A stretch of DNA of 64,000 nt from Marinobacterium iners DSM 11526. Lineage in GTDB: Bacteria > Pseudomonadota > Gammaproteobacteria > Pseudomonadales > Balneatricaceae. A program made the translations under genes and the position numbers. This document shows, piece by piece, positions 4,181 to 64,000 of the stretch (position 1 is its first letter; every line of letters starts with the position of its first letter). The stretch lies in the NCBI RefSeq assembly GCF_900107855.1, contig NZ_FNRJ01000005.1, positions 124,001 to 188,000 of the forward strand. Reading direction: 5' to 3'. The notes below the pieces were generated by a model. That model was not told the DNA's origin. It was given only the letters and a program-made list of their open reading frames with translations, and ran no database searches.

Positions 4181-4300
4181 GAGGTGCGGGCAGGATGTGT
4201 GAAGTAGTCCCACCATGCAAGCATGGCGGAGCCTCTTCACTGGCCCTTATTCGCACCTGCGGTGCTCAACGTTCATCCTGCCCTGCTATAGCGCTTTGCT
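4181..4300 (-). other. oriT: origin of transfer, IncP/RP4 type
   Basis: Read on the minus strand this segment follows RP4 oriT closely: GTTGAGCACCG.AGGTGCGAATAAGGG, CAGTGAAG, a small hairpin, then CTACTTCAC and the nic core ATCCTG^CCCG. Nicking is predicted on the minus strand between the complements of 4191 and 4190. A 10-bp perfect inverted repeat (GGGCAGGATG at 4188-4197, CATCCTGCCC at 4274-4283) and a CCATGC-AA-GCATGG hairpin (4213-4226) are visible. It lies directly upstream of traJ, as in RP4. Confidence 0.88.
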
Positions 4301-4324
4301 GGCAACTACAAAGAGGACATCAAG

Positions 4325-4699
4325 ATGGAGGCACAGGAAAACAAAACAACCAGGAAGAGCTGTACCCCGATCAAGGTGTATTGCCTGCCGGAAGAAAGAG
4401 CTGTGATTGAGGAAAACGCCAGGAGGGCGGGATTGAGTGCGTCAACCTACCTGCGGGAGGTGGGGCAGGGTTATCAGATACAGGGAGTAACCGATGCCGA
4501 GCAGGTGCGCGAGCTGGTCAGGGTAAATGGTGATTTGGGCCGTCTGGGTGGGCTGTTAAAACTCTGGCTGATGAATGATGCCAAGGTGGCTGCGTTTGGA
4601 CCCAATACGATACTGGCGCTTCTGCAGCGTATCGAAACGAATCAGGAACGAATGAGCCACCTCATGGAGTTCATTCTTCGGCCAAGGGCCGAATCATGA
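4325..4699 (+). CDS. traJ: TraJ oriT-recognition protein (relaxosome)
   Basis: A 124-residue ribbon-helix-helix-type protein matching RP4 TraJ in size and order: PIKVYCLPEER, IEENARRAGLS.STYLREVGQGY, VRELVRVNGDLGRLGGLLKLWL, ILALLQRIE, ending RPRAES. TraJ binds the oriT inverted repeat and loads the TraI relaxase at nic. AGAGGA lies upstream of the ATG. The stop overlaps the traI start (ATGA), so the two are translationally coupled. It sits immediately downstream of the matching oriT. Confidence 0.95.
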   Translation: MEAQENKTTRKSCTPIKVYCLPEERAVIEENARRAGLSASTYLREVGQGYQIQGVTDAEQVRELVRVNGDLGRLGGLLKLWLMNDAKVAAFGPNTILALLQRIETNQERMSHLMEFILRPRAES

Positions 4700-6474: not shown

Positions 6475-6727
6475 CACCTTCTTTATTAACCCTCGGGAAG
6501 CCTAACCGTTCCCCAGGACAATGACACCGATGTTCAACAACTATGCGGCCGCGCGTTCTAACGGTGTCGCGCAGGTCGGACGCCGGGATAGTAAGTGACA
6601 AGCTATCTCAGTAGAGGTCCACATTCACCGCTGATTTTCAGCAGGGGTAGCGATCACCATCATTCTGGTAGCTCGCTACAGGTTGGTGGGTGCAACTTGG
6701 TCACGACAACACTAAGAGCACTCAATC
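6475..6727 (+). other. intergenic gap between traI and trbJ
   Basis: This 253-bp segment joins the relaxase unit to the trb fragment. In RK2 these regions are far apart, so this is probably a deletion junction. A 25-codon frame (MTPMFNNYAAARSNGVAQVG...) runs from about 6522 to 6599, but no family was recognised and it is not called as a gene. Confidence 0.4.
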
Positions 6728-7498
6728 ATGCAAAGAGAACCAATTTTAGCGGCTAAAATGGCTGCGCTCGCTTTTTCAGTCGCCCTGATCACTCCTGTGC
6801 CCGTGCAGGCGGGTATTCCCGTAGTGGATAGCACCAACCTGGCGCAGAACACCATGTCGGCGATGGAGGCCGTTGCGCAGACCCTGAAGCAGATTCAGCA
6901 ATACCAGACCCAGCTGCAGCAGTACGAAAACCAGCTGCAAAACACCATGGCTCCGGCTGCTTACATCTGGGATCAGGCTCAAACCACCATCAATGACCTG
7001 GTTCAGGCAACCAATACTCTTCAGCATTACAAAAATCAGCTTGGCAGCCTGGATGCCTATCTGGGCAAGTTTCAGGATGTGGCCTATTACCGGGGATCTC
7101 CTTGTTTTAATGGTTCTGGCGGCTGCACGCAGAGTGAAATGGCGGCAATGGAAGAAAACCGCCGCCTGGCGTCTGAGTCGCAAAAGAAAGCCAACGACGC
7201 ATTGTTCAGAGGGCTGGATCAGCAGCAAGACAACCTGCAGACAGACGCGCGGCAGCTACAGCGTCTGCAATCTGCTGCCCAGGGTGCAGACGGACAGCTG
7301 GCGGCCATCGGCTATGCCAACCAGCTCGCCAGCAACCAGGCCAACCAGCTCCTGCAAATCCGTAGCCTGCTGATTGCTCAGCAGAACGCTGAAGCCACAC
7401 AACGTGCAGCGGAAATGGATGCTCATGCCAGAGGCGAAGCGCGAGAGAAACAGCTTCGAACCTGGAGTTATCAACCCAGCTCAGCAGATCGTTACTAA
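6728..7498 (+). CDS. trbJ: TrbJ conjugal transfer protein (VirB5-like)
   Basis: A periplasmic, minor-pilin-like component of the IncP mating-pair apparatus. The 256 residues start with a signal peptide (hydrophobic core about 10-26, cleavage near VQAG). This is followed by the TrbJ hallmark GIPVVDSTNLAQNTMSAMEAVAQTLKQIQQYQTQLQQYENQL and long glutamine-rich coiled coils. A CFNGSGGC pair of cysteines lies near residue 125. The ATG has only a weak AAGAG upstream. A KorB operator lies inside the signal-peptide codons. The C-terminus RTWSYQPSSADRY is closely matched by the end of TrbK. Confidence 0.92.
   Translation: MQREPILAAKMAALAFSVALITPVPVQAGIPVVDSTNLAQNTMSAMEAVAQTLKQIQQYQTQLQQYENQLQNTMAPAAYIWDQAQTTINDLVQATNTLQHYKNQLGSLDAYLGKFQDVAYYRGSPCFNGSGGCTQSEMAAMEENRRLASESQKKANDALFRGLDQQQDNLQTDARQLQRLQSAAQGADGQLAAIGYANQLASNQANQLLQIRSLLIAQQNAEATQRAAEMDAHARGEAREKQLRTWSYQPSSADRY
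6743..6759. promoter_or_regulatory. KorB operator-like palindrome 3, inside trbJ
   Basis: ATTTTAGCGGCTAAAAT lies 15 bases into trbJ and encodes part of its signal peptide. It contains the exact KorB consensus at 6745-6757 and has the same 17-bp extended palindrome as site 1. Confidence 0.72.
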
Positions 7499-7508
7499 GG
7501 AGGACGCC

Positions 7509-7739
7509 ATGAAAAAAGTCATTCCATTTGTGGCCTTGTTTACCTTGGTAGGGTGCGGGCAGGAAACGGTGCCAGAGCCGAATGCAGCAAGCTGTGCGCC
7601 GGCCGCATTTCAGCAGGCCATCAGCGAGCTGAGAAAAGAGGTGAACCGGAAAGCCTTCACCGAGGCTTGCCGATCCTTCGAAAAAGCTCAGCAGATGCGC
7701 AGCTGGGAGTTCAAACCCAGCTCTCCGGACCGTTACTAA
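7509..7739 (+). CDS. trbK: TrbK-like entry-exclusion lipoprotein
   Basis: A 76-residue lipoprotein: MKKVIPFVALFTLVGC has the lipobox LVGC with cysteine 16 as the lipid anchor. Size and place between trbJ and trbL fit TrbK, which blocks redundant transfer into cells carrying the same plasmid. The ATG is preceded by AAGGAGGA and lies 10 bp after trbJ. The stop overlaps an ATG of the next frame (TAATG). The C-terminal RSWEFKPSSPDRY mirrors the TrbJ C-terminus, which is unusual. Confidence 0.78.
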   Translation: MKKVIPFVALFTLVGCGQETVPEPNAASCAPAAFQQAISELRKEVNRKAFTEACRSFEKAQQMRSWEFKPSSPDRY

Positions 7740-7753
7740 TGGGAAGTTACAGC

Positions 7754-9364
7754 ATGAAACAAATTGTCTTTTATGGCCTGGCCGCTCTTGTTGCATCGGA
7801 TCCCGCAATGGCCCAGGAACTATCCAGCAGCAACATTATGGATGATGTGCTGGATCGCTATCATAGTGCTGTCTCAACCTGGGGGCCGGTCATTGAGGCG
7901 GCGGCGAGCCGTCTCTTTTGGGCCCTGGTGGTGATCTCAATGGTTTGGACCTTCGGCATGATGGCGTTGCGCAAGGCCGACATTGGCGAGTTCTTCGCGG
8001 AGTTGGTGCGCTTTACCATCTTCACCGGGTTCTTCTGGTGGCTGCTCACCAACGCTACACATGGGATGAACATTGCTGGAACCATGGTGGCATCTTTACA
8101 GCAACTTGGTGCCGAAGCCGGAGGCCTGGGAAGCAGCACTCTGGGCCCGTCCAGTATTCTGGATATGGGCTTTGAACTGTATGACCGGACGGTACAGGCC
8201 ACATCGGAGCTGAGCTTGCAACAGTTCGCCACTGCGCTGATGATGGAGCTGATGGCACTGGCGGTATTACTGGTGCTGGCGATTATATCCGTGAACCTGC
8301 TATTGCTGTTGGTCGCCAGTTGGATACTGCTGTACGCGGGTGTGTTCTTCCTGGGCTTTGGTGGCTCTCGTTGGACCTCTGACATGGCGATTAACTACTA
8401 CAAGGCCATTCTCGGTATTGCGGCTCAGCTGATGGCCATGGTGTTGCTTGTTGCCATTGGTAGAGATTTCCTCACTCATTACTACTCACAAATGAACGAA
8501 AACATGGCGTCCCAGGAGCTGGTGATGCTGGTGGTGTCGGTGATCCTGCTGTTCCTGGTGAACAAGGTGCCGCCCATGATCTCCGGCCTGGTATCTGGCG
8601 GCAGCGTCGGTGCAATGGGCATTGGTTCCTTTGGGGCCGGCGCTGCAATGGGGGCAGCCATGACAGCAGCCGGAATCGCCATGACCGGTGCCAAAATGGC
8701 CGGAGGTGCCATGTTGGGCGGTGCCGCTAATGCGGTAGGTGGTGCTAGTGCCATTAAAGCAGCCTTTACCAAGGCACAATCCAATATGTCCGGCGGAGAC
8801 ATGCCGAGCTTTGGCAGCGATAGCTCTGATGATGCTGGCAGTGATAACGCGAACACCGGTAATACTCCATTCTCGCAGGCAGCAGGCTTTACCGGTTCTG
8901 ACCAGCCTGCTGGCTTCAGCTCTGGTGGTGGCTTTGGCCGTGCCGCTTCTTTGGTGGCTGGCACAGCGGGTGAGCTGGCAAAAGGGGCAGGATCAAAGGT
9001 GACCGGAAAGTTCCAAGACAAAGTAAACCAGACTGCCGGCGGACGTTTGGCGACCTTTATCCGCGAAGGCATGGAGCCGAAAGGCGATACCGGTGCCGGA
9101 GCAGACAGCCCTTCACCGTCGTTCGATAGCGATAGCTTGGGCGGTGGCAACGACGGCGGCTGGGTAAACCAAACAGGCGGCTTTGATGCTCTGTCTAGCG
9201 AGGACCAGGACAAGGCCCGCCAATCACACGCTGAGTGGCAAGAGCGAGACCCTGAAAAGCACACCTTCGACGTTGAGGACTACGTTTCGTATGCTCAGGA
9301 ACGCCAGCAGGAGCGTAATGAAGAGGTTTCCGGCTTTGTGAACCGAGGCCAGCAGGCCACGTAA
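7754..9364 (+). CDS. trbL: TrbL inner-membrane conjugation protein (VirB6-like)
   Basis: A polytopic membrane protein, about 536 residues (RP4 TrbL is 528). It has a signal-like N-terminus, about six hydrophobic segments (residues about 50-70, 80-97, 155-205, 215-240, 260-280) and a long Gly/Ala/Ser-rich cytoplasmic tail. The conserved WILLYAGVFFLGFGGSRWTSDMA-type segment is diagnostic of TrbL. The ATG at 7754 was chosen because GGGAAG lies 8 bases upstream; an ATG at 7739 overlapping the trbK stop is possible. The tail contains NTPFSQAAGF and ends GFVNRGQQAT, both echoed in the next small protein. Confidence 0.93.
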   Translation: MKQIVFYGLAALVASDPAMAQELSSSNIMDDVLDRYHSAVSTWGPVIEAAASRLFWALVVISMVWTFGMMALRKADIGEFFAELVRFTIFTGFFWWLLTNATHGMNIAGTMVASLQQLGAEAGGLGSSTLGPSSILDMGFELYDRTVQATSELSLQQFATALMMELMALAVLLVLAIISVNLLLLLVASWILLYAGVFFLGFGGSRWTSDMAINYYKAILGIAAQLMAMVLLVAIGRDFLTHYYSQMNENMASQELVMLVVSVILLFLVNKVPPMISGLVSGGSVGAMGIGSFGAGAAMGAAMTAAGIAMTGAKMAGGAMLGGAANAVGGASAIKAAFTKAQSNMSGGDMPSFGSDSSDDAGSDNANTGNTPFSQAAGFTGSDQPAGFSSGGGFGRAASLVAGTAGELAKGAGSKVTGKFQDKVNQTAGGRLATFIREGMEPKGDTGAGADSPSPSFDSDSLGGGNDGGWVNQTGGFDALSSEDQDKARQSHAEWQERDPEKHTFDVEDYVSYAQERQQERNEEVSGFVNRGQQAT

Positions 9365-9376
9365 GGAGATACCACA

Positions 9377-9637
9377 ATGACACAACGTAATTTCATGGCC
9401 GCTCTGGACATGCCCGATGAAGCCCGAGAAACCCACACAGAGAGCGCTTTTGTGCCGGTTATTGAAACATCGGTCGAAGAAGAGAAAGACACCGAGGCGG
9501 AGATCGCCGCCTTTGTTAACCGTCCTGATCCTACTGGTTGGGTGGAAGCATCAAGTAGCAACCGCATCAGCAATGACGAAGGAGCCGGGAATACCCTGTT
9601 TTCCGAAGCGGCCGGGTTTTCCAATACCGTTCTTTAA
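9377..9637 (+). CDS. small acidic protein sharing TrbL tail motifs
   Basis: An 86-residue acidic protein 12 bp after trbL with AAGGAGAT upstream of its ATG. It contains IAAFVNRPDPTG and ends NTLFSEAAGFSNTVL, resembling FVNR and NTPFSQAAGF in the TrbL tail. It may be a partial duplicate of the trbL 3' end or a coevolved partner. No domain was recognised. It is the last gene before a terminator, so the trb fragment is a complete transcription unit ending here. Confidence 0.6.
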   Translation: MTQRNFMAALDMPDEARETHTESAFVPVIETSVEEEKDTEAEIAAFVNRPDPTGWVEASSSNRISNDEGAGNTLFSEAAGFSNTVL

Positions 9638-9645
9638 AAGCACAT

Positions 9646-9677
9646 GGGCCGGTGATGGGGTACCGGCCCGTATTTTT
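9646..9677 (+). terminator. intrinsic terminator of the trb unit
   Basis: GGGCCGGT (9646-9653) pairs with ACCGGCCC (9662-9669), followed by a T-rich tail at 9670-9677. Confidence 0.85.
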
Positions 9678-9999
9678 AAATATCCATGTGTCAAATGGGT
9701 TCTACATGACAATCTATAGAAAATGATAAAGTATTGTACCCAATGTGATTACCAATATAACTTATTTCTAGACAGAAGTGGGTCAGTGATTCCTCTAAAT
9801 TAGCAGAGAGTGGATTATCTGGTGTATATTAAAATTTCAACAAATTGAATTTAGAAATGACCCTACCTCTACTTGAGCAAGATACAATCACATACTTGTT
9901 AGTTAAATGTGTAGGCCCAACATGAAAACAACTCAATGTTTTTACATGGAATTTAAGTTATAATCCCCACATCTGTTCATTAGCATGAGATGACATTAA
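9678..9999. promoter_or_regulatory. AT-rich upstream region of the large defence-like gene
   Basis: About 320 bp with no recognised gene. A TATAAT box lies at 9959-9964, some 36 bases before the GTG start, but a good -35 at normal spacing is not clear. Base composition drops sharply here relative to the trb genes, marking the backbone/cargo junction. Confidence 0.4.
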
Positions 10000-12900
10000 G
10001 TGGCTAATATAATAATCCTAGTTCATGGCTTAGGTGGAGAAAAGGACGGCACTTGGGGGAAGTTTCCTGAATTACTAGAGGAAGACGAAGAGGTTGCCTA
10101 TCAAGTGTATTCTGTTGGCTATACAACGCCTATGCCAGAACTAAATAGACCTAAAACCTACTTAAAGATCTTAGCGCGAGCGCCCAGCCTATTAAATATC
10201 GCAAGTGGAATACTTACCGATATTGAGACTCATTGTGACTTAGAGAAAGATAATATTATTCTTGCGGGTCATAGTTTAGGAGGAATTGTTCTCAAAAAAA
10301 TCCTTCTTATGTTAAAAAACCGAGGGCAAGCCCACAGTATTAAGAAGGTATGTTTTTTTGATGTTCCACACGAAGGTTCTGGATATGCAAATATTGGAAG
10401 GTATATAGTTTTCAGAAATAGACATTTGAAATCCCTTATAAGTAATTCGGTAGAATTAGATGACCTAAATGAGCAGTGGGTTGGAAGTCGCCTTAATAAT
10501 GAATTAACCATCCAAAGCATTATTGCTGAGAATGATGACATTGTTTCTGCAATGAGCTCTAAAAGCATTTTTAGAGACCATTCTATCAAAACCATTTCGA
10601 ATGCAAATCATAAGACAATAGTGAAGCCTGAAAGTGCTGAGTCGACAGTTTATAAAGTATTTAAAGATTTCATACTTAAAGAAAACACAGTTTCCAAGTA
10701 TAATTGTTCAGCTTCAAGAGATATCCACGATTGGAAAAGTATAGAAGAACGAAATCATGCTTTTAATTATGCGAGTGACTCTCAACGCCAAAAAGACCTT
10801 CAAACTCTATCCTCCGCTTTAAAACAGGAACAAGTTATTATCAGGCTAGTTGGAGCTTCTGGGATGGGTAAAACTCGTATACTTTTAGAAGCTATCAAAG
10901 AAAACGAAGCTCTAACTGATGAACATATCCTTGTCTATAACGCACCAGAATATGAAACAAGAATAAAAGAGTCTGTTCGGGCAATGGTTGAGGAGGGAGC
11001 ACACGGTTTAGTTATAGTGGAGAACTGTCTCACCGAATTACATAACGCTTTGGCTCGAGAGCTCCATAAGACGAAGTGTCCACTAAAAATAGTTACTATA
11101 GGTTACAGTGATGAGCAAGTAGATGACTCAAACTTCATCCAGTTAAAGCCAATGAGTGATGAGGCGATAATTCAGCTACTCTCACCGATCCTTATTAACT
11201 TAAATGAAAATGAAATTAAACGCATAGCTCAGTTTGCTGAAGGTTATCCCTTAATGGCAACTCTAATTGCAGAGCAGTATCAAAAAGAAGGTAAGTTGCT
11301 AGGTTCAATTGAGCAACATTCTATTGTAAAGAAACTAATCAGTAGTGATGGAAATATACAAGATGATGAGAAAGATATATTGACGGCTTGTTCTCTTTTT
11401 GATGTTTTCGGAACCACCGAAGGGTCTGCTGGAGAAGAAGCAAAATATATCGCGGAAAGTGTAGCTGAATCAAACTTAAAAACTTTTGATAAGGTGTTAC
11501 GAGTATTCACAGCTAAACAAATCATTAATAGGGCTGGAAGGTACGCTAGAGTTGTTCCTAAACCTTTAGCCCTTACGTTAGCCTCTGATTGGTGGGAAGA
11601 AGCTTCGCACGAGCGTCAATCAAAACTGGTTGAAACTCTACCGGAATCTTTGTTCCAAAGCTTCTGCACTCAAGCTGTATATCTTGATAACCAGCCTAAC
11701 GTTCAAAAGTTCTCTGACAAATTGTTCGGGCACAACAGTCCTTTTATGAAAGCGGAAGTGTTGCTTACCGAGAGGGGTTCACAACTCTTCCGCAGCTTCG
11801 TAGAGATTAACCCACAGTCGACCTGTAACTCATTGCACTATGTATTGAACCAGTTTAGCCATGACCAGCTTCTATCTGTTGGAGGCAATACCCGACGTAA
11901 CCTGATTTGGGGGTTAGAAAAACTATGCTTCCACTCTCAAGTATTTGAGAAGGCTGCATGGTGTATGCTGTTACTTGCATCAGCTGAAAATGAAAGTTGG
12001 GGTAATAATGCGACCGGAATGTTCGCGCAATTATATAAATTACATCTTTCGGGTACTCAAGCTGAGCCAAAAATCCGTCTAAATGTACTAAGGAAAGCAG
12101 CCGCAGATAGAGATAGAGAATTTGATCTCATCATTGTCAAAGCATTAGAACAGGCTTTAAGGGTTGACGGAGGTACTAGAATGGTTGGTGCAGAGTATCA
12201 AGGTACCAAAGCTCCTTTAAAAGAATGGGCACCTCAGATTTGGCAAGAAATATATGACTACTGGCAGCAAGCAATGGACTTACTATTAGCGCTACTGGAT
12301 AAAGATTCAGATTGTAATGAGCAAGTACGTAAAGTGGTAGGTCGCTCAATAAGGTTGTTTGTTCGCTATCAACGATTAGATATGATGGATGGAGCTATAA
12401 AAACCATTGTCTCTAAATATGGGCCATATTGGCCTGAAGCCTTATCTAGCATTAAGAACACTTTTGAATATGACTCAGACAACTTGACTGAAAAGGCCGT
12501 TGGCACTCTACGAGAATGGTCCAGCTTACTCAATCCTGATGATGCAGAGCTAGTAGATAAATTAAAAATCATTGTTATCAATCCGCCGACTGAACACCAA
12601 ATGAGTGATGATGGTAATTATATAGATATTGCTGAAGAAAACGCTAAAGCTTTAGCAACATCAATTAGTGAAGCCCCTGAAGTTCTAGAACCACATTTAT
12701 TGACTTTACTTCAGGGGGAACAGAGGCAGTCTTCTGCATTTGGTTACCAATTGACTTTAGAAATGAAAGCCCCCCAAGAGTTACTAGACCTAATTTTTAA
12801 GACGATGGCTACTATGGCTGATCCAAATATAAACTTACTTCTCGGTGTATTTAGAGGGGTTAGAGAAAGGTCTGTTGAACTTTGGAACCACAATATCGAA

Positions 12901-13923
12901 CGATTAACTCTTGATAAGGAGCTTGTCCAATATTATCCACATTGCTTACGAACAGGCAGAATAGATAGCATGCATCTAACTACTCTATTAGAGCTAATTT
13001 GCAAGGAGCAATTGCCGCTAAGGAGTGCTGATTTACTTAGTTATGGCAGCGTTACTCGATACATTAGCCCATCGGAAATTGTAGACTTTTGCCTTGCCTT
13101 AGCAGAAATGTCAGCGCAAGCTAAATGGACAGCTTTAAACGTACTTTATATGTACTCCTTTGGTAATAAAGACACTTTCAACGAGCTTAGAGAGCCTTTC
13201 AAGAAGCTTGTTACGGAAGTTCCACTCCATAAAATGCAACAAGACAGCACAATGGATGTTTATCACTGGAAGGATATGACACAAAAGTTGCTAGTAGGCT
13301 ATGATGAAGAGTTAGCTATCTCTCTAACTAAACAACTGATCACAGGCTGCAGCTATGGATATGAACATGGAAATATTTGGAGTAACATCAAACCAATCTT
13401 AAAACTTTTGATGTTGGAGTATGGCTCGATAGTTTGGCCGAAGTTCGCAGACGCTATTGTTAATGCAGAAGGTCTCGAATTATATTGGCTACAACAGCTA
13501 TTAGATCGTGATTCAGGCTTGGTAGATAATTGTCCAAGTGTTTTGTCTGTTCTACCAATAAAAAACATAATTGACTGGTGTAAAGAACACAATCCAGATG
13601 GCCCTATATTTATTAGTCGATGTCTAAATATTTTTGAGGTGGAAGAAGACTCTCGAAAACCATCGGAACTGTTTATCGCAATTATAGAAAATTTTGGCTC
13701 AAATGAATATGTTACGAATGAACTTCACGCCAACTTTGGTAGCCGGGGTTGGATGGGTTCTCTAGTTCCATATTTAGAGGCTGACAAAGAAGCTTTAACT
13801 CCGTTACTAAGGCATGAAAAACCATGCGTATCAAACTGGGTAAATGAATTTATAAAAAAAATTAATGGAATGATTGAAGCGGAATCTCAAAAAGATGAAG
13901 AGAGAAACTTTAGGTCTTATTGA
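10000..13923 (+). CDS. alpha/beta-hydrolase plus STAND NTPase protein, candidate antiphage sensor-effector
   Basis: 1307 residues, three parts. Residues 1-225: alpha/beta hydrolase of the PGAP1/lipase-like type, with ILVHGLGG (6-13), nucleophile Ser92 in GHSLGG (90-95), DVPHEGSG (121-128), a likely acid in ENDDIVSAMSS (about 177-187) and His204 in NANHKTIVKP. Residues about 250-560: STAND-type P-loop NTPase with GASGMGKT (285-292) and a Walker-B-like LVIVENC (337-343). Residues about 600-1307: alpha-helical, probably repeat-forming, as in target-sensing regions. Effector-NTPase-repeat order is that of Avs-type antiphage proteins. The start is GTG. It stands alone in AT-rich cargo. Function is inferred from architecture. 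Confidence 0.75.
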   Translation: MANIIILVHGLGGEKDGTWGKFPELLEEDEEVAYQVYSVGYTTPMPELNRPKTYLKILARAPSLLNIASGILTDIETHCDLEKDNIILAGHSLGGIVLKKILLMLKNRGQAHSIKKVCFFDVPHEGSGYANIGRYIVFRNRHLKSLISNSVELDDLNEQWVGSRLNNELTIQSIIAENDDIVSAMSSKSIFRDHSIKTISNANHKTIVKPESAESTVYKVFKDFILKENTVSKYNCSASRDIHDWKSIEERNHAFNYASDSQRQKDLQTLSSALKQEQVIIRLVGASGMGKTRILLEAIKENEALTDEHILVYNAPEYETRIKESVRAMVEEGAHGLVIVENCLTELHNALARELHKTKCPLKIVTIGYSDEQVDDSNFIQLKPMSDEAIIQLLSPILINLNENEIKRIAQFAEGYPLMATLIAEQYQKEGKLLGSIEQHSIVKKLISSDGNIQDDEKDILTACSLFDVFGTTEGSAGEEAKYIAESVAESNLKTFDKVLRVFTAKQIINRAGRYARVVPKPLALTLASDWWEEASHERQSKLVETLPESLFQSFCTQAVYLDNQPNVQKFSDKLFGHNSPFMKAEVLLTERGSQLFRSFVEINPQSTCNSLHYVLNQFSHDQLLSVGGNTRRNLIWGLEKLCFHSQVFEKAAWCMLLLASAENESWGNNATGMFAQLYKLHLSGTQAEPKIRLNVLRKAAADRDREFDLIIVKALEQALRVDGGTRMVGAEYQGTKAPLKEWAPQIWQEIYDYWQQAMDLLLALLDKDSDCNEQVRKVVGRSIRLFVRYQRLDMMDGAIKTIVSKYGPYWPEALSSIKNTFEYDSDNLTEKAVGTLREWSSLLNPDDAELVDKLKIIVINPPTEHQMSDDGNYIDIAEENAKALATSISEAPEVLEPHLLTLLQGEQRQSSAFGYQLTLEMKAPQELLDLIFKTMATMADPNINLLLGVFRGVRERSVELWNHNIERLTLDKELVQYYPHCLRTGRIDSMHLTTLLELICKEQLPLRSADLLSYGSVTRYISPSEIVDFCLALAEMSAQAKWTALNVLYMYSFGNKDTFNELREPFKKLVTEVPLHKMQQDSTMDVYHWKDMTQKLLVGYDEELAISLTKQLITGCSYGYEHGNIWSNIKPILKLLMLEYGSIVWPKFADAIVNAEGLELYWLQQLLDRDSGLVDNCPSVLSVLPIKNIIDWCKEHNPDGPIFISRCLNIFEVEEDSRKPSELFIAIIENFGSNEYVTNELHANFGSRGWMGSLVPYLEADKEALTPLLRHEKPCVSNWVNEFIKKINGMIEAESQKDEERNFRSY

Positions 13924-13965
13924 TGGGTTCTCTTAATCTGAGGGCTGTTAGCATTTAGGTCAAAC

Positions 13966-13989
13966 ATACCCCGTGTTATCACGGGGTAT
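13966..13989 (+). terminator. hairpin after the STAND gene
   Basis: ATACCCCGTG-TTAT-CACGGGGTAT is a perfect 10-bp-arm stem-loop 43 bp after the stop codon. The following T-run is poor, so termination may be moderate. Between here and 14245 no gene was recognised. Confidence 0.6.
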
Positions 13990-14308
13990 TACTCCGGAAA
14001 TTTCAAAGTTATAACAATTCAATGCTGATTGGTCTACTCGGTTTTTATCTAAGAGCAAAGCGAGATTCCTGTTTCGGGTTATCCCCCTTATTTTCACACT
14101 TACCTATAGATTGGTTTTAGTATGCTCAATTTAAAATCACAGGATGAAAAAATATTTTCTTTAAGTAGGTTTGGGGAAAAGCGAATTATGGTTTTTAGCA
14201 ACAAGCGTCAGTACAACTAACTCTGACTCGATATTGGAGTGTAGGTGGTCTAATGCTCCCGGACACCATTTAAGGTGGTACAGTCACCACCGTAACAAGA
14301 GGTGGTGC

Positions 14309-14617
14309 ATGACCAGAAAACGACGTTCTTTTTCATCCGAGTTCAAACTTGAAGCAGCCAGCCTGGTGCTTGACCAAGGGTACTCCATTGCCGAGGCCGG
14401 CCGTTCGCTGGATGTCGGTGAGACCATCCTCAGACGCTGGGTCCAGCAGCTTCAGCAAGAGCGCGAAGGCACCACGCCAGCCAGCAAGGCCCTGACACCG
14501 GAGCAACAGCGGATACAGGAACTGGAAGCCCGCATCAACCGGCTGGAGCGAGAGAAAGCCATATTAAAAAAGGCCACCACTCTCTTGATGCAGGACGAAC
14601 TCGAACGTACGCGCTGA
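14309..14617 (+). CDS. IS3-family OrfA (HTH part of transposase)
   Basis: 102 residues, with an AAGAGGTGG ribosome-binding site. Residues 1-50 form the IS3 helix-turn-helix (RSFSSEFKLEAASLVLDQGYS...EAGRSLDVGETILRRWV). Residues about 65-95 form the leucine-zipper coiled coil ending LEREKAILKKATTLLM. AAAAAAG at 14566-14572 is the expected -1 frameshift site that would fuse it to OrfB. Confidence 0.9.
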   Translation: MTRKRRSFSSEFKLEAASLVLDQGYSIAEAGRSLDVGETILRRWVQQLQQEREGTTPASKALTPEQQRIQELEARINRLEREKAILKKATTLLMQDELERTR

Positions 14618-15467
14618 TAGACCAGTTGAGAGGGCAGGAATCGGTTGAACTGGTCTGCTGCGTGTTTGATGTCGCTCCATCCAGCTTTTATGACTACCTG
14701 AAGCGCAAACGTACCGTGAATGTTCAGCACATCAGGCAGCGGAGTGAAGTGAACCGTTTGTTTACGGCCAGCCGGTCGTCTGCAGGCAGTCGCACCTTGA
14801 TGCTGATGATGCGAGAGCAAGGACATCAGGTGGGCCGTTACCGGGTGAGAAGCCTGATGAAAGAGCTGGGGCTGATATGCAAACAACCCGGCTCTCATGC
14901 CTATAAAACGGCCACGGTTGAACGACCGGATATCCCCAACCGGCTGAATCGCGAGTTTACACCCGCTGCATCGCATCAATCCTGGTGTTGGGATATAACC
15001 TACATCTGGGCCGGCAACCGCTGGTGTTATCTGGCCGCCGTCGTGGATCTGTACCGTCGTCGGCTGGGCGCTCTCCCATCGTCCGGATGCCGAGCTGGCG
15101 GCCAAGGCGCTGGACATGGCTTATGAGCTGCGGGGACGACCATCAGGACTGTTGTTCCACTCAGACCAGGGCAGCAAATATGCGAGCCGCTTGTTCAGGC
15201 AACGGCTGTGGCGTTACCGCATCACACAGAGCATGAGCCGTCGGGGTAACTGTTGGGAGCGTCAGTGCCCCGATGGAGAGGCTGTTCCGCAGCCTGAAAA
15301 CGGAATGGGTGCCAGCGACCGGTTACCCGTCAATGACGGAAGCCAAAAGAGACATCGGTGATTACCTGATGAACTACTACAACCGGCAGCACCCTCATCA
15401 ATACAATGATGGACTGCCGCCGGCTCAGGCCGAACATCGGTCTGATTTACTGTCCGGGATTAGTTGA
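14566..15467 (+). pseudogene. IS3-family OrfB (DDE transposase), two frameshifts
   Basis: The reading frame continues from the A6G site through the HTH_21 region (VELVCCVFDVAPSSFYDYLKR) to WDITYIWAGNRWCYLAAVVDLY. The frame then shifts near 15053-15061, where several bases are missing before GWALSHRPDAELAAKAL. It continues through FHSDQGSKYAS to RGNCWE and shifts again near 15256-15268 before MERLFRSLKTEWVP...YNDGLPPAQAE. The DDE core is split across three frames, so it is inactive. Confidence 0.88.
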
Positions 15468-15606
15468 CCACTACAAATATCCTATCCAAGATAGTAACTA
15501 AAACAGTTACTTATATCAGGTCTATGATTTGCAATGACGTATAACAATAGATGTCGGTCAGTAAGTGATTGAATGTTATGTAATTGATTGTAAATAAATA
15601 AGAAAA

Positions 15607-15635
15607 TTGAAAAAACCAGGCTTTCTTGTTAGAAT
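15607..15635 (+). promoter_or_regulatory. sigma70-type promoter of the DUF6088-Fic pair
   Basis: TTGAAA (15607-15612), a 17-bp spacer and TAGAAT (15630-15635) give a good housekeeping promoter, placing transcription start about 20 bases before the antitoxin ribosome-binding site GGGGGA. Confidence 0.65.
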
Positions 15636-15664
15636 TGATTGGTGGTTTACTGGGGGATGTTTAT

Positions 15665-16333
15665 ATGAAACTTGAAACTCGTATGCGCCAGTCGATTCAA
15701 CACCGTCATGGAGTTGTCCTATCTCGTTCGGATCTGGCTCCATTGGGAAGCAAGACCCAAGTTACACATGCGTTGAATGTGTTAGTGAAAAATGGTGAAC
15801 TTCTTCGCCTCTCTCTAGGGATTTACGTTAAAGCCAAAAGAGCGGGAAATGATGTAAAAGCTCAGGGTAGTCTTGATGTTATCATTCGTGAAGTAGCCAA
15901 CAAATTAGGCTTCCAGCTTCGCCAAAAAGACTTGTCCTTTGAGAAAGTAAATACCCCACAAGGTGAAATTATTGTTGAAGTTGATGCACCAAGAGTTAAG
16001 CGCAAGCTTATCATCAATGGGAAGACTATTTGCTTTCGTAGTTATAGCCGTAAGTCTGGCACTAAAAAGACAGCATTCAAATTGGCAAAGACCCCTCCTA
16101 CCAAAGGGGTTGCTCGTTATGTAGCTGAGCTTGCTCGATACTATAAAGTATCTTACTGCTACAACGCGATGGATCAGTGGGCTGATGCTGTAACTCGCTT
16201 AGCTGGTGATGAGGTGATACATGATACCGTCGAAGATCTTCTTGTAGCTCTAAAACGAGCAGGGAAAATCACCAAGCAAGAAGTTGCTATGTTGTCAGTC
16301 AATTACCTGCGAGAACAAAAACAAAGTGTTTGA
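15665..16333 (+). CDS. DUF6088/AbiEi-like protein, probable antitoxin
   Basis: 222 residues. The N-terminal 60 residues form the winged helix typical of DUF6088 and AbiEi antitoxins: RHGVVLSRSDLAPLG...VTHALNVLVKNGELLRLSLGIYVKAK. The rest is a basic alpha/beta domain without an obvious catalytic motif. The ATG at 15665 was chosen for GGGGGA 7 bases upstream. The stop overlaps the GTG of the Fic gene, so the products are probably made in fixed ratio. The likely role is to neutralise the Fic partner and autoregulate the operon (inference from family and gene order). Confidence 0.7.
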   Translation: MKLETRMRQSIQHRHGVVLSRSDLAPLGSKTQVTHALNVLVKNGELLRLSLGIYVKAKRAGNDVKAQGSLDVIIREVANKLGFQLRQKDLSFEKVNTPQGEIIVEVDAPRVKRKLIINGKTICFRSYSRKSGTKKTAFKLAKTPPTKGVARYVAELARYYKVSYCYNAMDQWADAVTRLAGDEVIHDTVEDLLVALKRAGKITKQEVAMLSVNYLREQKQSV

Positions 16334-17042
16334 TCCATTTAATGATTTTGAGCAAGTCGGTTATTTACGTAACTATCAAGGTGTAAAAGACCCTGCAATT
16401 GTTCGTCAACTTGAACATACAATGTTTCGTGCTGGTTTGGATGAAGCTTTAGTTTATTTAGCAGGAAGAGCGGACTTACGTTACGAAGATTTCTTGGAAG
16501 TTCACCGGATATTATTCGAAGCATTCTATCCTTGGGCTGGTCAAGATCGTGCAATTACTGCTCCTAATTGTGCGGTATCTAAAGCTGGTACGATGTTTTG
16601 CCATCCTCATCATGCACGATTAGCTATTGAGCAGGGCTTACGTCTCGGACAGAATGCAAAGTCTATGCGTCAGCGTCCTGGTGAGGTTATGGGCTTTTTT
16701 GCCTATGGGCATCCATTTCTTGATGGGAACGGACGTACTATGCTGATTGTTCACAATGAGCTTTGTCATCGAGCTGGCTTTTCGATTGATTGGCATAAAA
16801 CTAATAAATCTGATTATTTAAGAGCTTTAAGCGCTGAAATTGAATCCCCATCAAAAGGGCTTTTGGATAACTACTTATTGCAGTTTATAGGTGGCATTCG
16901 AGTTCGAGAGCTTTGGGGGGAATCTATAAATGGTATTCGTGGTTTAGACGGTCAAAGTATAGAAGATTCTGTAGAAGGAGAGTACACAGACGAAGCAGTT
17001 GCTCAAAAGTATCAATCATTCGAGATGAATAGAGGTCTGTAA
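16326..17042 (+). CDS. Fic-domain protein, probable toxin
   Basis: 238 residues from the GTG at 16326, which overlaps the upstream stop by 8 bases. The Fic catalytic motif HPFLDGNGR is complete at about residues 129-137, including the general-base histidine. The preceding fold (VHRILFEAFYPWAGQDR...HPHHARLAIEQGL) is typical of Fic/DOC enzymes, which transfer AMP or other phosphate groups onto target proteins. No N-terminal inhibitory (S/T)xxxE(G/N) helix is obvious, so inhibition must come from elsewhere, presumably the upstream protein. The target is unknown. Confidence 0.85.
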   Translation: MFDPFNDFEQVGYLRNYQGVKDPAIVRQLEHTMFRAGLDEALVYLAGRADLRYEDFLEVHRILFEAFYPWAGQDRAITAPNCAVSKAGTMFCHPHHARLAIEQGLRLGQNAKSMRQRPGEVMGFFAYGHPFLDGNGRTMLIVHNELCHRAGFSIDWHKTNKSDYLRALSAEIESPSKGLLDNYLLQFIGGIRVRELWGESINGIRGLDGQSIEDSVEGEYTDEAVAQKYQSFEMNRGL

Positions 17043-58704: not shown

Positions 58705-59787
58705 ATGACACGTAAATACAATTTCAGTGCAGGGCCTGGGGCCCTGCCGGAAGAGGTTCTGCAACAGGCACAGGCTGAGCTGCTGGACTGGCACGGTCAG
58801 GGGCTCTCCATTATGGAGATGAGCCATCGCAGTGACGAGTATGTTGGCGTTGCGGCCCAGGCCGAGCAGGATCTGCGAGACCTGATGGGCATCCCGGTCA
58901 ACTACAAGGTGCTGTTCCTGCAGGGTGGTGCAACGGCCCAGTTTGCCATGGTGCCGATGAACCTGCTGCGTGGTGCGAGCTGCGCGGACTATATCGACAC
59001 CGGCATCTGGTCCGGCAAGGCGGTCAAGGAAGCCCGGCGCTATGCACAGATAAATGTGGCTGCCAGCACCGCAGGCAATAACTACACCTCGGTGCCGGCG
59101 CAGTCAGAACTGCAGCTGACGCCTGGGGCGGCCTATCTGCATTACACCACCAACGAAACCATTGGTGGTGTCGAGTTTGACTACATTCCCGATAGCGGCG
59201 ATGTGCCACTGGTGGCCGATATGTCTTCCGATATTCTGTCTGTCCCTGTGGATGTCAGCCGCTTTGGCCTGATCTACGCCGGCGCACAGAAGAATATTGG
59301 TCCTGCTGGTCTGACGGTAGTGATCGTGCGTGAAGATTTGATCGGCCAGACGCTGGCGGGTACGCCAAGCATGTACGACTACAAGATCCACGCTGACGCC
59401 GACTCCATGAACAACACGCCACCGACCTTTGGCTGGTATCTGGCCGGGCTGGTGTTCCAGTGGCTCAAACGCCAGGGTGGTGTAGAGGCGATGGCCGAAC
59501 TGAACCGCCGCAAGGCCGCTAAGCTCTATGCGGCCATTGATGCCAGCGATTTCTACGGCAATCCGGTGGCGATCAACAACCGCTCCATCATGAATGTGCC
59601 GTTTACGCTGGCCGATGCCACTTTGGAAAAACGTTTCCTTGAACTGGCAGAAGCAGAAGGAATGCTCAATCTTCAGGGGCATCGCTCTGTTGGTGGCATG
59701 CGGGCGAGCATCTATAACGCGGTACCAGAAGCGGCGGTGGATGCGTTGATCGACTTCATGCAGCGGTTCGAAAAAGAGCAGGCCTGA
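58705..59787 (+). CDS. serC: phosphoserine aminotransferase
   Basis: 360 residues, PLP enzyme of serine and pyridoxal phosphate synthesis. NFSAGPGALPEEVL at the start, FLQGGATAQFAMVPMNLL, and the PLP lysine in IYAGAQKNIGPAG are intact. 32 bp after gyrA and 2 bp before pheA, the standard gyrA-serC-pheA-hisC order. Confidence 0.97.
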   Translation: MTRKYNFSAGPGALPEEVLQQAQAELLDWHGQGLSIMEMSHRSDEYVGVAAQAEQDLRDLMGIPVNYKVLFLQGGATAQFAMVPMNLLRGASCADYIDTGIWSGKAVKEARRYAQINVAASTAGNNYTSVPAQSELQLTPGAAYLHYTTNETIGGVEFDYIPDSGDVPLVADMSSDILSVPVDVSRFGLIYAGAQKNIGPAGLTVVIVREDLIGQTLAGTPSMYDYKIHADADSMNNTPPTFGWYLAGLVFQWLKRQGGVEAMAELNRRKAAKLYAAIDASDFYGNPVAINNRSIMNVPFTLADATLEKRFLELAEAEGMLNLQGHRSVGGMRASIYNAVPEAAVDALIDFMQRFEKEQA

Positions 59788-59789
59788 GT

Positions 59790-60680
59790 ATGAAGGCGAC
59801 TGACAAGGGTGCGGCAGATGCGCAGGAAGCGAAACTGCGGGTGTTGCGTGATCGCATCGATACGGTGGATCGTCAGATCCACCAGCTGCTGAATGATCGC
59901 GCTCGGCTGGCACAGGGCGTGGCTGAAGTGAAGGAGCGCTACCGCGAAGGGGGCGAGACACCGGTATTTTACCGACCTGAACGTGAAGCGCAGGTGTTGA
60001 GAGCCGTAATGGCCCGCAACGAGGGGCCGTTGCCCGATCAGGCCGTTGCACGCCTGTTTCGCGAGATCATGTCGGTCTGCCTTGCGCTTGAGCAGCCGAT
60101 GCGTGCGGTGTTCCTCGGTCCTGAAGGCACCTTTACGCAGCAGGCAGCGCAGAAGCATTTCGGGCAGGCTGTTCGTTGTCAGGCGTTGCCAAGCCTGGAG
60201 CAGGTGTTCAGTGAAGTGGAGCAGGGCAGTGCTCACTATGCAGTTGTCCCCATCGAGAGTGAGGATGCCGGTTTGATCCGGCATACGCTGGATCTGTTTC
60301 GCCGCTTCGGCCTGTATATATGCGGTGAAGTGGAGCTGGCTCCCGAAGCGGCAGCGCAGGCAACTGATCGTTGCCCTCGTTTTCTGGTCGTTGGTCGTGA
60401 AGCGGTTGGTCCCAGCGGTGATGACAAAACCTCACTGTTGCTTATCTGCCGTGATGAGCCTGGCGTGCTGCATGATCTTTTGTCGCCTTTTCACCGACGC
60501 AATATCAGTCTGACGCGTCTGGAAACACGCAGCAGCGGTGAGCACGACTGGAAAATGCTGTTCTATATTGATTTCGAAGGTCATCGTGAAGATCCCGCAG
60601 TTATCGAATTGCTGACGGAACTGGGTGGTCTCGATATCGAGGTAAAATTTCTCGGATCCTACCCGAAAGCGGTGCTCTGA
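59790..60680 (+). CDS. pheA: PheA-like protein: chorismate mutase plus ACT, with deleted prephenate dehydratase core
   Basis: 296 residues against about 365 for the family. The chorismate mutase domain (LRVLRDRIDTVDRQIHQLLNDRARLAQGVAEVK, FYRPEREAQVLRAV, FREIMSVCLALEQP) and the C-terminal ACT domain (DDKTSLLLICRDEPGVLHDLLSPF, NISLTRLETRSS, the phenylalanine-binding region) are present. The dehydratase domain starts normally (FLGPEGTFTQQAAQKHFG). However, VPIEN(S/T) reads VPIESEDAGLI, about 75 residues between VICGEVEL and the STRF(L) motif are missing, and that motif reads RCPRFLVVG, without the catalytic threonine. Dehydratase activity is probably lost. It lies between serC and hisC. Confidence 0.85.
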   Translation: MKATDKGAADAQEAKLRVLRDRIDTVDRQIHQLLNDRARLAQGVAEVKERYREGGETPVFYRPEREAQVLRAVMARNEGPLPDQAVARLFREIMSVCLALEQPMRAVFLGPEGTFTQQAAQKHFGQAVRCQALPSLEQVFSEVEQGSAHYAVVPIESEDAGLIRHTLDLFRRFGLYICGEVELAPEAAAQATDRCPRFLVVGREAVGPSGDDKTSLLLICRDEPGVLHDLLSPFHRRNISLTRLETRSSGEHDWKMLFYIDFEGHREDPAVIELLTELGGLDIEVKFLGSYPKAVL

Positions 60681-60707: not shown

Positions 60708-61811
60708 ATGTCATGTGATTTTATGGCACTGGCGACACCTGGAGTACAGGGGTTGCACCCCTACGAAGCAGGCAAGCCGGTTGAGGAGCTGGAGCGTGAG
60801 CTGGGGATACACGATATCATCAAGCTTGCCAGCAATGAGAATCCGCTGGGACCCAGTGCGTATGCGATTGAAGCTGTACAGAAAGCATTGGCCGAAGCTA
60901 CCCGTTACCCAGACAGTAATGGCTTTCGTCTCAAGGAAGCGCTGCATCAATATTATGGATTGATGCCAGAACAGCTGACGCTGGGTAACGGCTCCAACGA
61001 CGTGCTTGAGCTGATCGCGCGTGCCTTTCTTCAACCCGGAGATGAAGTTATCTTCTCCGAATACGCCTTTGCGGTGTACCACATTGTGACTCAGGCCTGT
61101 AGTGCCAAAGCGGTCATCACGCCTGCTCGTGATTATGGTCACAATCTTCAGGCGATGGCTGAAGCCATTACAGAAAATACCCGCCTGATCTTCATTGCCA
61201 ACCCGAATAACCCAACCGGCACCGCCTTGATGCGTGACGAGCTGACAGCATTTCTGGCAGCGGTGCCGGAGCATGTCATTGTCGTGCTGGATGAAGCCTA
61301 TACGGAATATGTTGAGGCTGGAGACTTTCCGGATGGGCTGGAGTTACTGCCTCAGTTCCCGAATCTGGTGGTAACCCGCACATTTTCCAAGGCCTGGGGG
61401 CTTGCCGGCCTGCGCGTCGGTTTTGCTGCCGCCAGTACAGTGATTACCGATCTGCTTAACCGTGTACGGCAACCGTTCAATGTATCCCATCTCGCGCTTG
61501 CGGCTGCTGAGGCTGTTCTGGATGACGGTGATTACCTGGCTCGCAGTGTCGAGCTTAATCGCAGGGGAATGGCTCAGCTCGAGCAGGGGCTGAAACAGCT
61601 TGGAGTCGGTTATATCCCCTCATTCGGGAACTTCATCACTGTCGATATGGCACGCCCGGCCCAGCCCCTGTTTCAGGCACTGCTGCATGAAGGCGTGATC
61701 GTGCGGCCATTGGGCGGATACCGGATGCCTCAGCATCTGCGTATCAGTATCGGTCTGACAAATGAAAATGACCGGTTCCTGCGGGCACTCAAACAGGTGC
61801 TGGCGTGCTGA
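60708..61811 (+). CDS. hisC: histidinol-phosphate/aromatic aminotransferase
   Basis: 367 residues, HisC type (hisC2-like in this position). SNENPLGPSAYAIEAV, LIFIANPNNPTGTAL, the PLP lysine in VTRTFSKAWGLAGLRVGF, and RPLGGYRMPQHLRISIG are all present. In this aromatic operon the copy is expected to transaminate aromatic precursors as well as histidinol phosphate. The stop overlaps the GTG start of tyrA-aroA. Confidence 0.92.
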   Translation: MSCDFMALATPGVQGLHPYEAGKPVEELERELGIHDIIKLASNENPLGPSAYAIEAVQKALAEATRYPDSNGFRLKEALHQYYGLMPEQLTLGNGSNDVLELIARAFLQPGDEVIFSEYAFAVYHIVTQACSAKAVITPARDYGHNLQAMAEAITENTRLIFIANPNNPTGTALMRDELTAFLAAVPEHVIVVLDEAYTEYVEAGDFPDGLELLPQFPNLVVTRTFSKAWGLAGLRVGFAAASTVITDLLNRVRQPFNVSHLALAAAEAVLDDGDYLARSVELNRRGMAQLEQGLKQLGVGYIPSFGNFITVDMARPAQPLFQALLHEGVIVRPLGGYRMPQHLRISIGLTNENDRFLRALKQVLAC

Positions 61812-64000
61812 ACTACTCGGGTAAGTCGCAATACCAGCTCGACAGAGTGCTGATCATTGGCTTGGGGCTGATAGGTGGCTCTTTTGCCAAGGCACTGAAG
61901 ATTCGTTCCTGTGTTCGTGAAATCGTGGGTGCCGATCGCAGTGAGGAGGAGTGCCGGCTGGGTCTCGAGCTGGGTGTGATTGATCGTGTTGCCACTGACC
62001 TTGAAGCGGAAGTGTCAGCGGTTGATCTGATCGTCCTGGCCGTTCCGGTCAAGGCGATGGAAAGTGTGCTTGAACAGATTCGTCCCTGGCTGCGTTTGCG
62101 CACACTGGTGACGGATGTCGGCAGCACCAAGGGAAGCCTGGTAGCAGCCGCACGTCGTCTGTTCGGGCAATTGCCACCGACCTTTATTCCTGGGCACCCC
62201 ATTGCCGGTGCCGAGAAAAGCGGTGTGCGTGCTGCCGATGCTGACCTGTTCGAGCGACATAAGGTGATTCTAACACCGCTGCCCGAGACCGATCCAAATG
62301 CCACGCTTGAGTTGGCACGCCTGTGGCAGGCGGTAGGTGCCGAAGTGTTGCAGATGGAAGTTGAGCGGCATGATGAAGTGCTGGCCGCAACAAGCCACTT
62401 GCCGCACCTGCTGGCATTTTCGTTGGTCGATACATTGGCGCGTGAAGAGGAAAATCTGGATATTTTCCGTTATGCCGCAGGCGGCTTTCGTGACTTCACG
62501 CGCATTGCTGCCAGCGACCCAACCATGTGGCATGACATCTGTGTTGCCAATCGAAGTGCGGTGCTGGCGCAGATTGATCGTTATACCACCGGTCTGACTC
62601 GTCTGCGCAGTGCCATTGACACTGGCGATAGCCAGACGATGCTGGGAATCTTCACGCGAGCCAAGGCGGCTCGAGATCACTTTACCCGATTACTGACAGG
62701 GTCAGCCTATTCATCGAATGATCATGCGGCTGGAGTAAGCTTGCGTGTCAGCAGTGATGCTGCACCAGTAGGTGAACTGGTATTGCCGGGCGATAAGTCG
62801 GTTTCACACAGGGCGATTATTCTTGCGGCCATAGCCGATGGCGTAACGGATATCAGTGGTTTTCTCGAAAGTGAAGACAGCCTGGCGACGTTGCAGGCAA
62901 TGCGTGATATGGGCGTAGTCATTGAAGGTCCGCATCAGGGCAGGGTCAGAATCTACGGAGTTGGCCTGCATGGGCTTAAACCGCCACCTGGGCCGCTCTA
63001 CCTGGGTCACTCGGCTACCTCGATGCGTCTTTTGGCGGGTGTGCTGGTCGCTCAGCCGTTCGATACCGAGCTGTTCGGTGACGAGTCCCTGAGTCAACGC
63101 AATATGTCACGTGTGGCGGAGCCGCTGCGCCTGATGGGGGCGGATATTGAAACCGGTATTGGCGGCTGCCCGCCACTGAAAATAAAAGGGGGGCGCAGGT
63201 TGCGGGGTGTTCGCTATACCCTGCCGATGCCCAGTGCTCAGGTTAAATCAGCGCTGCTGCTGGCAGGGTTGTGGGCGGAAGGTGAAACCCGAGTGGTTGA
63301 GCCGGTGGCGACACGTGATCACACCGAACGGATGCTGTCAGCGCTTGGAGTTGATATGAGCAGTGACGCCGGGGAGGTCTGCCTTAAACCTGCTCAATCG
63401 CTGCGAGCTGCACCTATCGAAGTTCCGCGCGACCTGTCCTGGGCGACACTGTTCATGCTGGTAGCCAGTCTCAGCCCTGGGGCTGACCTGCTGCTCAAAG
63501 GGGTGGGTATTAATCCCAGTCGAGCGGGTGCGCTGCGCGTGCTTGAGCGCATGGGGGCTGTCATTACACTGTCTGAGCAGCACCTCCAGGCAGGGGAACC
63601 GGTAGCCGATATTCATGTCAAGGCGGGGCGGCCACTGTCTGCAGTGACAGTGGATCTGTCAGATCTTGCCACGGCCAGCGACGAGGTACCTCTGTTGTTG
63701 GTGGCTGCAGCCTGTGCAGTGGGACACAGCCGATTTACCGGGCTGGATGGGTTGCGTCGCAAGGAGGAAGATCCGGTGGCGCAAACAGCGCAGCTGTTAC
63801 AGCAATTGGGTGTGCGGCTAGAGCTGGATAATGACCGAATCGAAGTAACCGGTGGGTGCATCGAGGGTGGTGAGATCATGTTGAATGGGCAGATCCGAGT
63901 TGCCATGGCGGCGCTGGCGGCTGGGCTCTGCGGCGAAAATACACTCAAAATTGGCGGAGGCGGCTGTTTGTTGGCAGCATGCCCCGATCTGATCGAGTTG
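61805..64000 (+). CDS. tyrA-aroA: bifunctional prephenate dehydrogenase / EPSP synthase-like fusion (3' end beyond window)
   Basis: 732 codons visible, from a GTG overlapping the hisC stop and open to the window end. Residues about 15-290: intact TyrA (IIGLGLIGGSF, TDVGSTKG, GHPIAGAEKSG, HDEVLAATSHLPHLLAF, FRDFTRIAASDPTMW). Residues about 313-732: AroA-like domain with LPGDKSVSHRA (327-337), TRDHTERML and SAQVKSALLLAG. Several substrate-binding positions differ from known enzymes: LGHSAT (400-405) for LGNSGT or GNAGT, LRRKEEDP (650-657) for LRVKESDR, NGQIRVAMA (694-702) for GDHRIAMA, and no clear SFPGF near the end. The fusion is normal in Pseudomonas; the substitutions are not. Confidence 0.93.
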   Translation, partial: MLNYSGKSQYQLDRVLIIGLGLIGGSFAKALKIRSCVREIVGADRSEEECRLGLELGVIDRVATDLEAEVSAVDLIVLAVPVKAMESVLEQIRPWLRLRTLVTDVGSTKGSLVAAARRLFGQLPPTFIPGHPIAGAEKSGVRAADADLFERHKVILTPLPETDPNATLELARLWQAVGAEVLQMEVERHDEVLAATSHLPHLLAFSLVDTLAREEENLDIFRYAAGGFRDFTRIAASDPTMWHDICVANRSAVLAQIDRYTTGLTRLRSAIDTGDSQTMLGIFTRAKAARDHFTRLLTGSAYSSNDHAAGVSLRVSSDAAPVGELVLPGDKSVSHRAIILAAIADGVTDISGFLESEDSLATLQAMRDMGVVIEGPHQGRVRIYGVGLHGLKPPPGPLYLGHSATSMRLLAGVLVAQPFDTELFGDESLSQRNMSRVAEPLRLMGADIETGIGGCPPLKIKGGRRLRGVRYTLPMPSAQVKSALLLAGLWAEGETRVVEPVATRDHTERMLSALGVDMSSDAGEVCLKPAQSLRAAPIEVPRDLSWATLFMLVASLSPGADLLLKGVGINPSRAGALRVLERMGAVITLSEQHLQAGEPVADIHVKAGRPLSAVTVDLSDLATASDEVPLLLVAAACAVGHSRFTGLDGLRRKEEDPVAQTAQLLQQLGVRLELDNDRIEVTGGCIEGGEIMLNGQIRVAMAALAAGLCGENTLKIGGGGCLLAACPDLIEL

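Follow-up and report, generated by a model that had tools for sequence, protein, structure and literature searches.

This study examined a pheA gene of Marinobacterium iners whose product lacks much of its prephenate dehydratase (PDT) domain. The gene lies in a 64,000-nucleotide stretch of DNA that was analysed as a whole (the window); its reading frame is open, and its start is located two bases past the stop of the upstream gene (Table 1). The original prediction, made from the DNA letters, proposed that the chorismate mutase (CM) and ACT domains were intact and that approximately 75 residues of the dehydratase domain were missing at about residue 183. Pfam searches revealed the full CM_2 profile (positions 1-80 of 80, 80.8 bits) and an ACT match of 50.2 bits against a cut-off of 27, and the ACT domain was also recognised and well modelled in a predicted structure. 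The claim of intactness held for CM and, with a caveat, for ACT: the ACT motifs GALV and ESRP read GVLH and ETRS, although the same positions vary in some full-length relatives too. The PDT match comprised only profile positions 2-78 of 181, the first 43%. In a 42-row alignment in which 16 rows were full-length relatives, the distance from the end of the GEVEL motif (residue 183) to the T278 position was 12 residues in the window protein versus 89-92 in the relatives. This net loss of 77-80 residues corresponds to the second PDT lobe and bears out the predicted deletion.

We further analyzed the catalytic motifs by using E. coli numbering. N160, Q215, and T278 are catalytic positions according to E. 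coli mutagenesis. Q215 lies inside the deleted part. The VPIEN motif, which had been thought to be replaced, was only partly changed and reads VPIES, with the substitution N160S and with E159 retained. The (S/T)TRF motif reads CPRF, exactly as first described, and the catalytic threonine itself is now proline (T278P). In the available text of PMC8192741, the E. coli mutagenesis is cited and E159 is named, and the corresponding text of PMC10845154 describes the TRF triad as critical for substrate binding and catalysis. The trimmed protein scored 99.3 bits with TIGR01807 (cut-off 69.55) and 109.1 bits with the P-protein model NF007910 (cut-off 577). Of the P-protein features, the complete AroQ CM domain and the C-terminal ACT domain were present, whereas a complete two-lobed PDT domain with its catalytic residues was absent.

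Table 1. Features of the trimmed pheA locus and of a second region of the window (window positions).
Feature	Position	Strand	Basis or remark
Core-deleted pheA (aroQ - PDT lobe 1 - ACT), 296 aa	59790..60680	+	ORF and Pfam; kept in 8/8 genus genomes
Chorismate mutase (AroQ/CM_2) domain, residues 19-102; sole CM_2 match in genome	59844..60095	+	Pfam
PDT lobe 1 remnant, residues 107-183; VPIES motif (N160S) at residues 153-157	60108..60338	+	Pfam, alignment, model
Junction, approximately residues 186-192, in place of second PDT lobe	60345..60365	+	Low model confidence, relaxed constraint
CPRF, residues 195-198, remnant of (S/T)TRF motif, T278P	60372..60383	+	Alignment
ACT domain, residues 214-279	60429..60626	+	Pfam, model
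Class V aminotransferase, upstream neighbour	58705..59787	+	Domain match
Class I/II aminotransferase, downstream neighbour	60708..61811	+	Domain match
Prephenate dehydrogenase - EPSP synthase fusion (tyrA-aroA type), runs off window	61805..64000	+	Domain matches
traJ-II RNA	4188-4292		Part of apparent mobile element
Relaxase with TraI_middle	4696-6474		Part of apparent mobile element
TrbL	7553-9364		Part of apparent mobile element
1307-aa ORF, no Pfam match	10000-13923		Part of apparent mobile element
Fic-domain protein	16284-17042		Part of apparent mobile element

One CM_2 match per genome was found in all eight genomes of the genus, and a family search for CM_1 returned no match in the window's own genome. 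The trimmed PheA was the only CM that the CM_2 and CM_1 searches found in this genome, and its CM activity should therefore be needed for both tyrosine and phenylalanine. The equivalents of R11, R28, and K39 of the E. coli enzyme were retained in the CM domain, and R37, K48, R65, E66, C97, and E101 did not vary in any of the 30 aligned sequences, most of them full-length and including Pseudomonas and the window protein itself. Which E. coli CM residues count as catalytic is our own assumption, and the correspondence of R51/E52 between E. coli CM and the window protein was assigned by hand. Judged by its sequence, the product of the trimmed gene looks like a chorismate mutase in working order.

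Phenylalanine had been expected to come from another dehydratase or from uptake, and the first of these was supported by a second, full-length PDT of the stand-alone type in the window's own genome (G000:C19; PRK11899, 400.2 bits against a cut-off of 359). All 26 family genomes with a trimmed form contained such a second PDT, matched at E 1e-52 or better and located outside the trimmed gene. The equivalents of E159, N160, Q215, T278, R279, and F280 were intact in the second PDT of each of them (8 of the genus and 18 others), and the E232 position is D in all eight genus genomes. Two or more PDT matches, counted by eye from match rows, were present in 113 of 116 family genomes and in 12 of 12 family members of the order sample, compared with 25 of 281 genomes outside the family, where six genomes had none. 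Because two PDTs are usual in the family and uncommon outside it, it is plausible that the second PDT was present before the lobe was lost and allowed this loss. The suggestion that the second PDT is insensitive to phenylalanine, drawn from its ACT motifs AALY and ESYM, was dropped: according to its entry title, the similar Brucella PDT 6vh5 was solved with Phe, and GqqA also has ESYM yet binds Phe in the account available from PMC8192741.

We consider it probable that a former AroQ-PheA-ACT P-protein has become a CM carrying a lobe 1-ACT module, perhaps regulated by phenylalanine, and that the dehydratase half was shed once it was redundant. The stand-alone PDT would have come first and made the dehydratase core dispensable. 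The second lobe of the periplasmic-binding-protein-like PDT domain would then have been lost, and with it the cleft in which prephenate is presumed to be dehydrated, leaving a trimmed protein that is presumably without dehydratase activity. The authors of the GqqA study suggested, in the text available from PMC8192741, that the active site lies in the cleft between the two PDT subdomains; with one subdomain missing, an active site of this kind cannot form. The CM domain would remain active, and its prephenate would supply both tyrosine synthesis, via the dehydrogenase encoded nearby, and phenylalanine synthesis, via the stand-alone PDT. Lobe 1 and ACT may persist as a dimeric, folded unit that probably still binds Phe and modulates CM. 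The findings support the original reading of a CM kept by selection with dehydration carried out elsewhere, its Phe sensing being putative.

The selection acting on the remnant was determined in the window's genus (g1) and in other genera of the family (g7, g8, and g12), G043 and G044 being trimmed members of g7; all pN/pS values are rough because synonymous sites are near saturation. For CM, lobe 1, junction, and ACT, pN/pS was 0.12, 0.15, 0.44, and 0.21 in g1 (28 pairs), 0.19, 0.24, 0.63, and 0.31 in g12 (45 pairs), and 0.32, 0.64, 1.40, and 0.61 in g8 (15 pairs). G044 compared with full-length g7 copies yielded 0.10 for lobe 1 and 0.21 for ACT, values that include the constraint on the full-length copies themselves. 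These results support purifying selection on both parts of the tail (lobe 1 and ACT) in g1, in g12, and, to the extent that a single sequence can tell, in G044; in g1 they agree with the earlier argument that the open frame reflects selection rather than simple decay. The constraint on the tail could reflect folding or dimerisation, not Phe sensing. Median rates relative to gyrA for ACT, lobe 1, and CM were 2.75, 2.40, and 1.68 in g1 and 2.22, 2.21, and 2.17 in full-length g7 copies; other full-length copies exhibited 2.08 for ACT and 1.41 for lobe 1. In g1, ACT and lobe 1 thus evolved somewhat faster than in full-length copies and CM no faster than in g7, so that a partial relaxation is possible.

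Erosion of the trimmed PheA was evident in the g8 genomes and in G043, where its C-terminal half, including ACT, was decaying and mainly the CM domain was left. This decay indicates that the lobe 1-ACT tail is not always needed. The rates relative to gyrA reached 8.2 for lobe 1 and 9.5 for ACT in g8; when G043 was compared with full-length g7 copies, they were 7.8 and 8.2, respectively. The ACT rate of g12 was also raised (4.0). Plain decay under way, in which only CM matters and lobe 1 and ACT are passengers slowly being lost, would account for these eroded tails and high rates, g8 having already reached that state. We nevertheless regard it as unlikely, since the tail is clearly constrained in g1 and g12, and low pN/pS was also obtained for G044, with the full-length copies' constraint included. 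Moreover, lobe 1 and ACT align end to end in all eight g1 genomes, and their fold was predicted with high confidence.

The AlphaFold2 model of the window protein, built with 30 sequences, had a mean pLDDT of 87.7 and a pTM of 0.83, and only two segments fell below a pLDDT of 50, namely the former catalytic loop (157-162) and the junction (186-193). The best Foldseek match was 7alz_A, with 194 resolved residues; to judge by chain length, 7alz would be the SeGqqA crystal that lacks the same lobe. In the SeGqqA crystals, residues 86-170 were gone through proteolysis, and the remainder superposed on intact GqqA at 0.76 A with L-Phe still bound, as the available text of PMC8192741 reports. Sequence mapping placed GqqA V85 and H171 at P185 and D193 of the window protein; evolution has thus excised the lobe that proteolysis removed from SeGqqA. 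When the model was compared by using VIA-align, the top eight entries had Z values of 18.7-21.3 over 183-192 aligned residues, and all later rows had 7.2 or less. The eight were PDTs, GqqA, and 3luy, which is titled "putative chorismate mutase" in its entry but called a PDT in PMC8192741. In the S. mutans PDT entry 4lub, whose sequence has 276 residues, the matching chains had 188-190 of them resolved, suggesting that this crystal is also without a middle part. Residual chemistry in lobe 1, such as weak dehydratase activity or the binding of another ligand, would fit the continued conservation of lobe 1 and the retention of E159, but we consider it highly improbable, given that Q215 is gone, T278 is proline, and the former catalytic loop was modelled at low confidence.

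The trimmed protein was found in all eight g1 genomes, two of them single-contig assemblies; the other seven proteins were 79-98% identical to the window protein, and the junction was 12 residues long throughout. An assembly or sequencing error that removed 77-80 codons in frame, which the original prediction had itself named as a threat to its reading, has a negligible probability and is excluded by the recurrence of the same deletion and junction in these eight genomes. Within the family, 116 genomes were searched, and the trimmed form was identified in 26 of the 115 with a match (g1, 8/8; g12, 10/11; g8, 6/6; g7, 2/8). A gene was counted as trimmed when its match was a single contiguous trimmed one or was even shorter, its state being judged from matches and frames; G091 and G093, whose matches were weak or fragmentary, and G017, whose match contains a stop, were left unjudged, and the gene of G051 reaches a contig end. 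Junction lengths were 12-13 residues in g12, 8 in G044, 14 in G043, and 2-3 in g8.

We then compared these states with a gyrA+serC+hisC tree of 42 selected genomes (every member of g1, g7, g8, and g12 plus 9 others), in which full-length and trimmed copies stood side by side within g7 and g12. A single ancestral deletion, under which the 26 trimmed forms would make up one clade, was rejected by the AU test (p 3.7e-42). G043+G044 as one clade and g1+g8+trimmed g12 as one clade were also rejected (AU p 0.005 each), these being weaker tests because both groups were chosen with the tree already in view. When only losses are counted, the lobe must have been lost at least four times in the family; a common loss in g1 and g8 (support 66) was neither demonstrated nor rejected, and the count is therefore at least four, not five. 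With regain allowed, parsimony required four changes when the species tree was used and three with the PheA tree, in which G043 groups with part of g8 on long branches flagged as unreliable by the program. The PheA of G077, a g12 genome, is full-length and sister to the trimmed g12 forms and already carries N160S; it looks like a possible inactive intermediate ahead of lobe excision.

More tentatively, and with somewhat less than even confidence, we propose that a domain once catalytic serves, after lobe loss, solely as a regulatory coupler, a stable Phe-sensing lobe 1-ACT module controlling only CM, and that such a conversion has started on at least four occasions within a single bacterial family, the excisions falling at or close to a common structural boundary. 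The genomes provide a natural series of full-length proteins, a full-length protein with N160S (G077), proteins with the lobe excised and the tail conserved (g1, g12, and G044), and proteins with an eroding tail (g8 and G043). This series makes it testable how a bifunctional enzyme sheds a redundant activity and whether a dead catalytic lobe can persist as an allosteric part. The findings also carry a warning for annotation, as genes labelled "pheA" in this family frequently do not encode a prephenate dehydratase. Low-scoring members of the order (family f44 and others) did not have the same deletion, all 10 that were checked having a PDT match that spans positions 10-178 of 181 or more. Among the matches listed from 390 order genomes, the trimmed architecture was not found outside the family.

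The bifunctional AroQ-PheA-ACT P-protein (E. coli PheA and the PheA of the Pseudomonas supraoperon) shares the neighbourhood, CM, lobe 1, and ACT with the window protein and is homologous to it throughout, whereas the window protein has the second PDT lobe deleted, N160S, no Q215, and T278P. SeGqqA, a PDT of Komagataeibacter europaeus, resembles it in that the corresponding subdomain was absent and the remaining fold and L-Phe binding were kept (PMC8192741, available text); however, SeGqqA is a stand-alone PDT with no CM domain and was cut by proteolysis in crystallisation, a change not encoded by its gene. In an enteric lineage, the dehydratase part was likewise lost, and event 16 in Table 6 of PMC1173090 reads "pheA domain of aroQ-pheA becomes a pseudogene"; that event concerns a pseudogene, and the available part of this source does not describe a conserved trimmed protein across genera. 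PRK06034, a CM-related NCBIfam model named "hypothetical protein", matched residues 14-160 of the window protein (CM and most of lobe 1) at 62.5 bits. This score is far under the cut-off of 311, so the window protein is not a member; the cut-off was exceeded in 1 of 14 control genomes. A search of the open-licence PMC literature found no report of a conserved trimmed AroQ-PheA form. The product of this pheA gene is a shortened version of a known enzyme, and its conserved form across genera is apparently undescribed in that literature.

From the known gene order, we take the upstream class V aminotransferase to be serC and the downstream class I/II aminotransferase to be hisC. The order gyrA, serC, aroQ-pheA, hisC, tyrA-aroA is known for Pseudomonas and other upper gamma-proteobacteria, according to the available text of PMC1173090. 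Elsewhere in the window, positions 4188-17042 contain an apparent integrated conjugative or mobilisable element.
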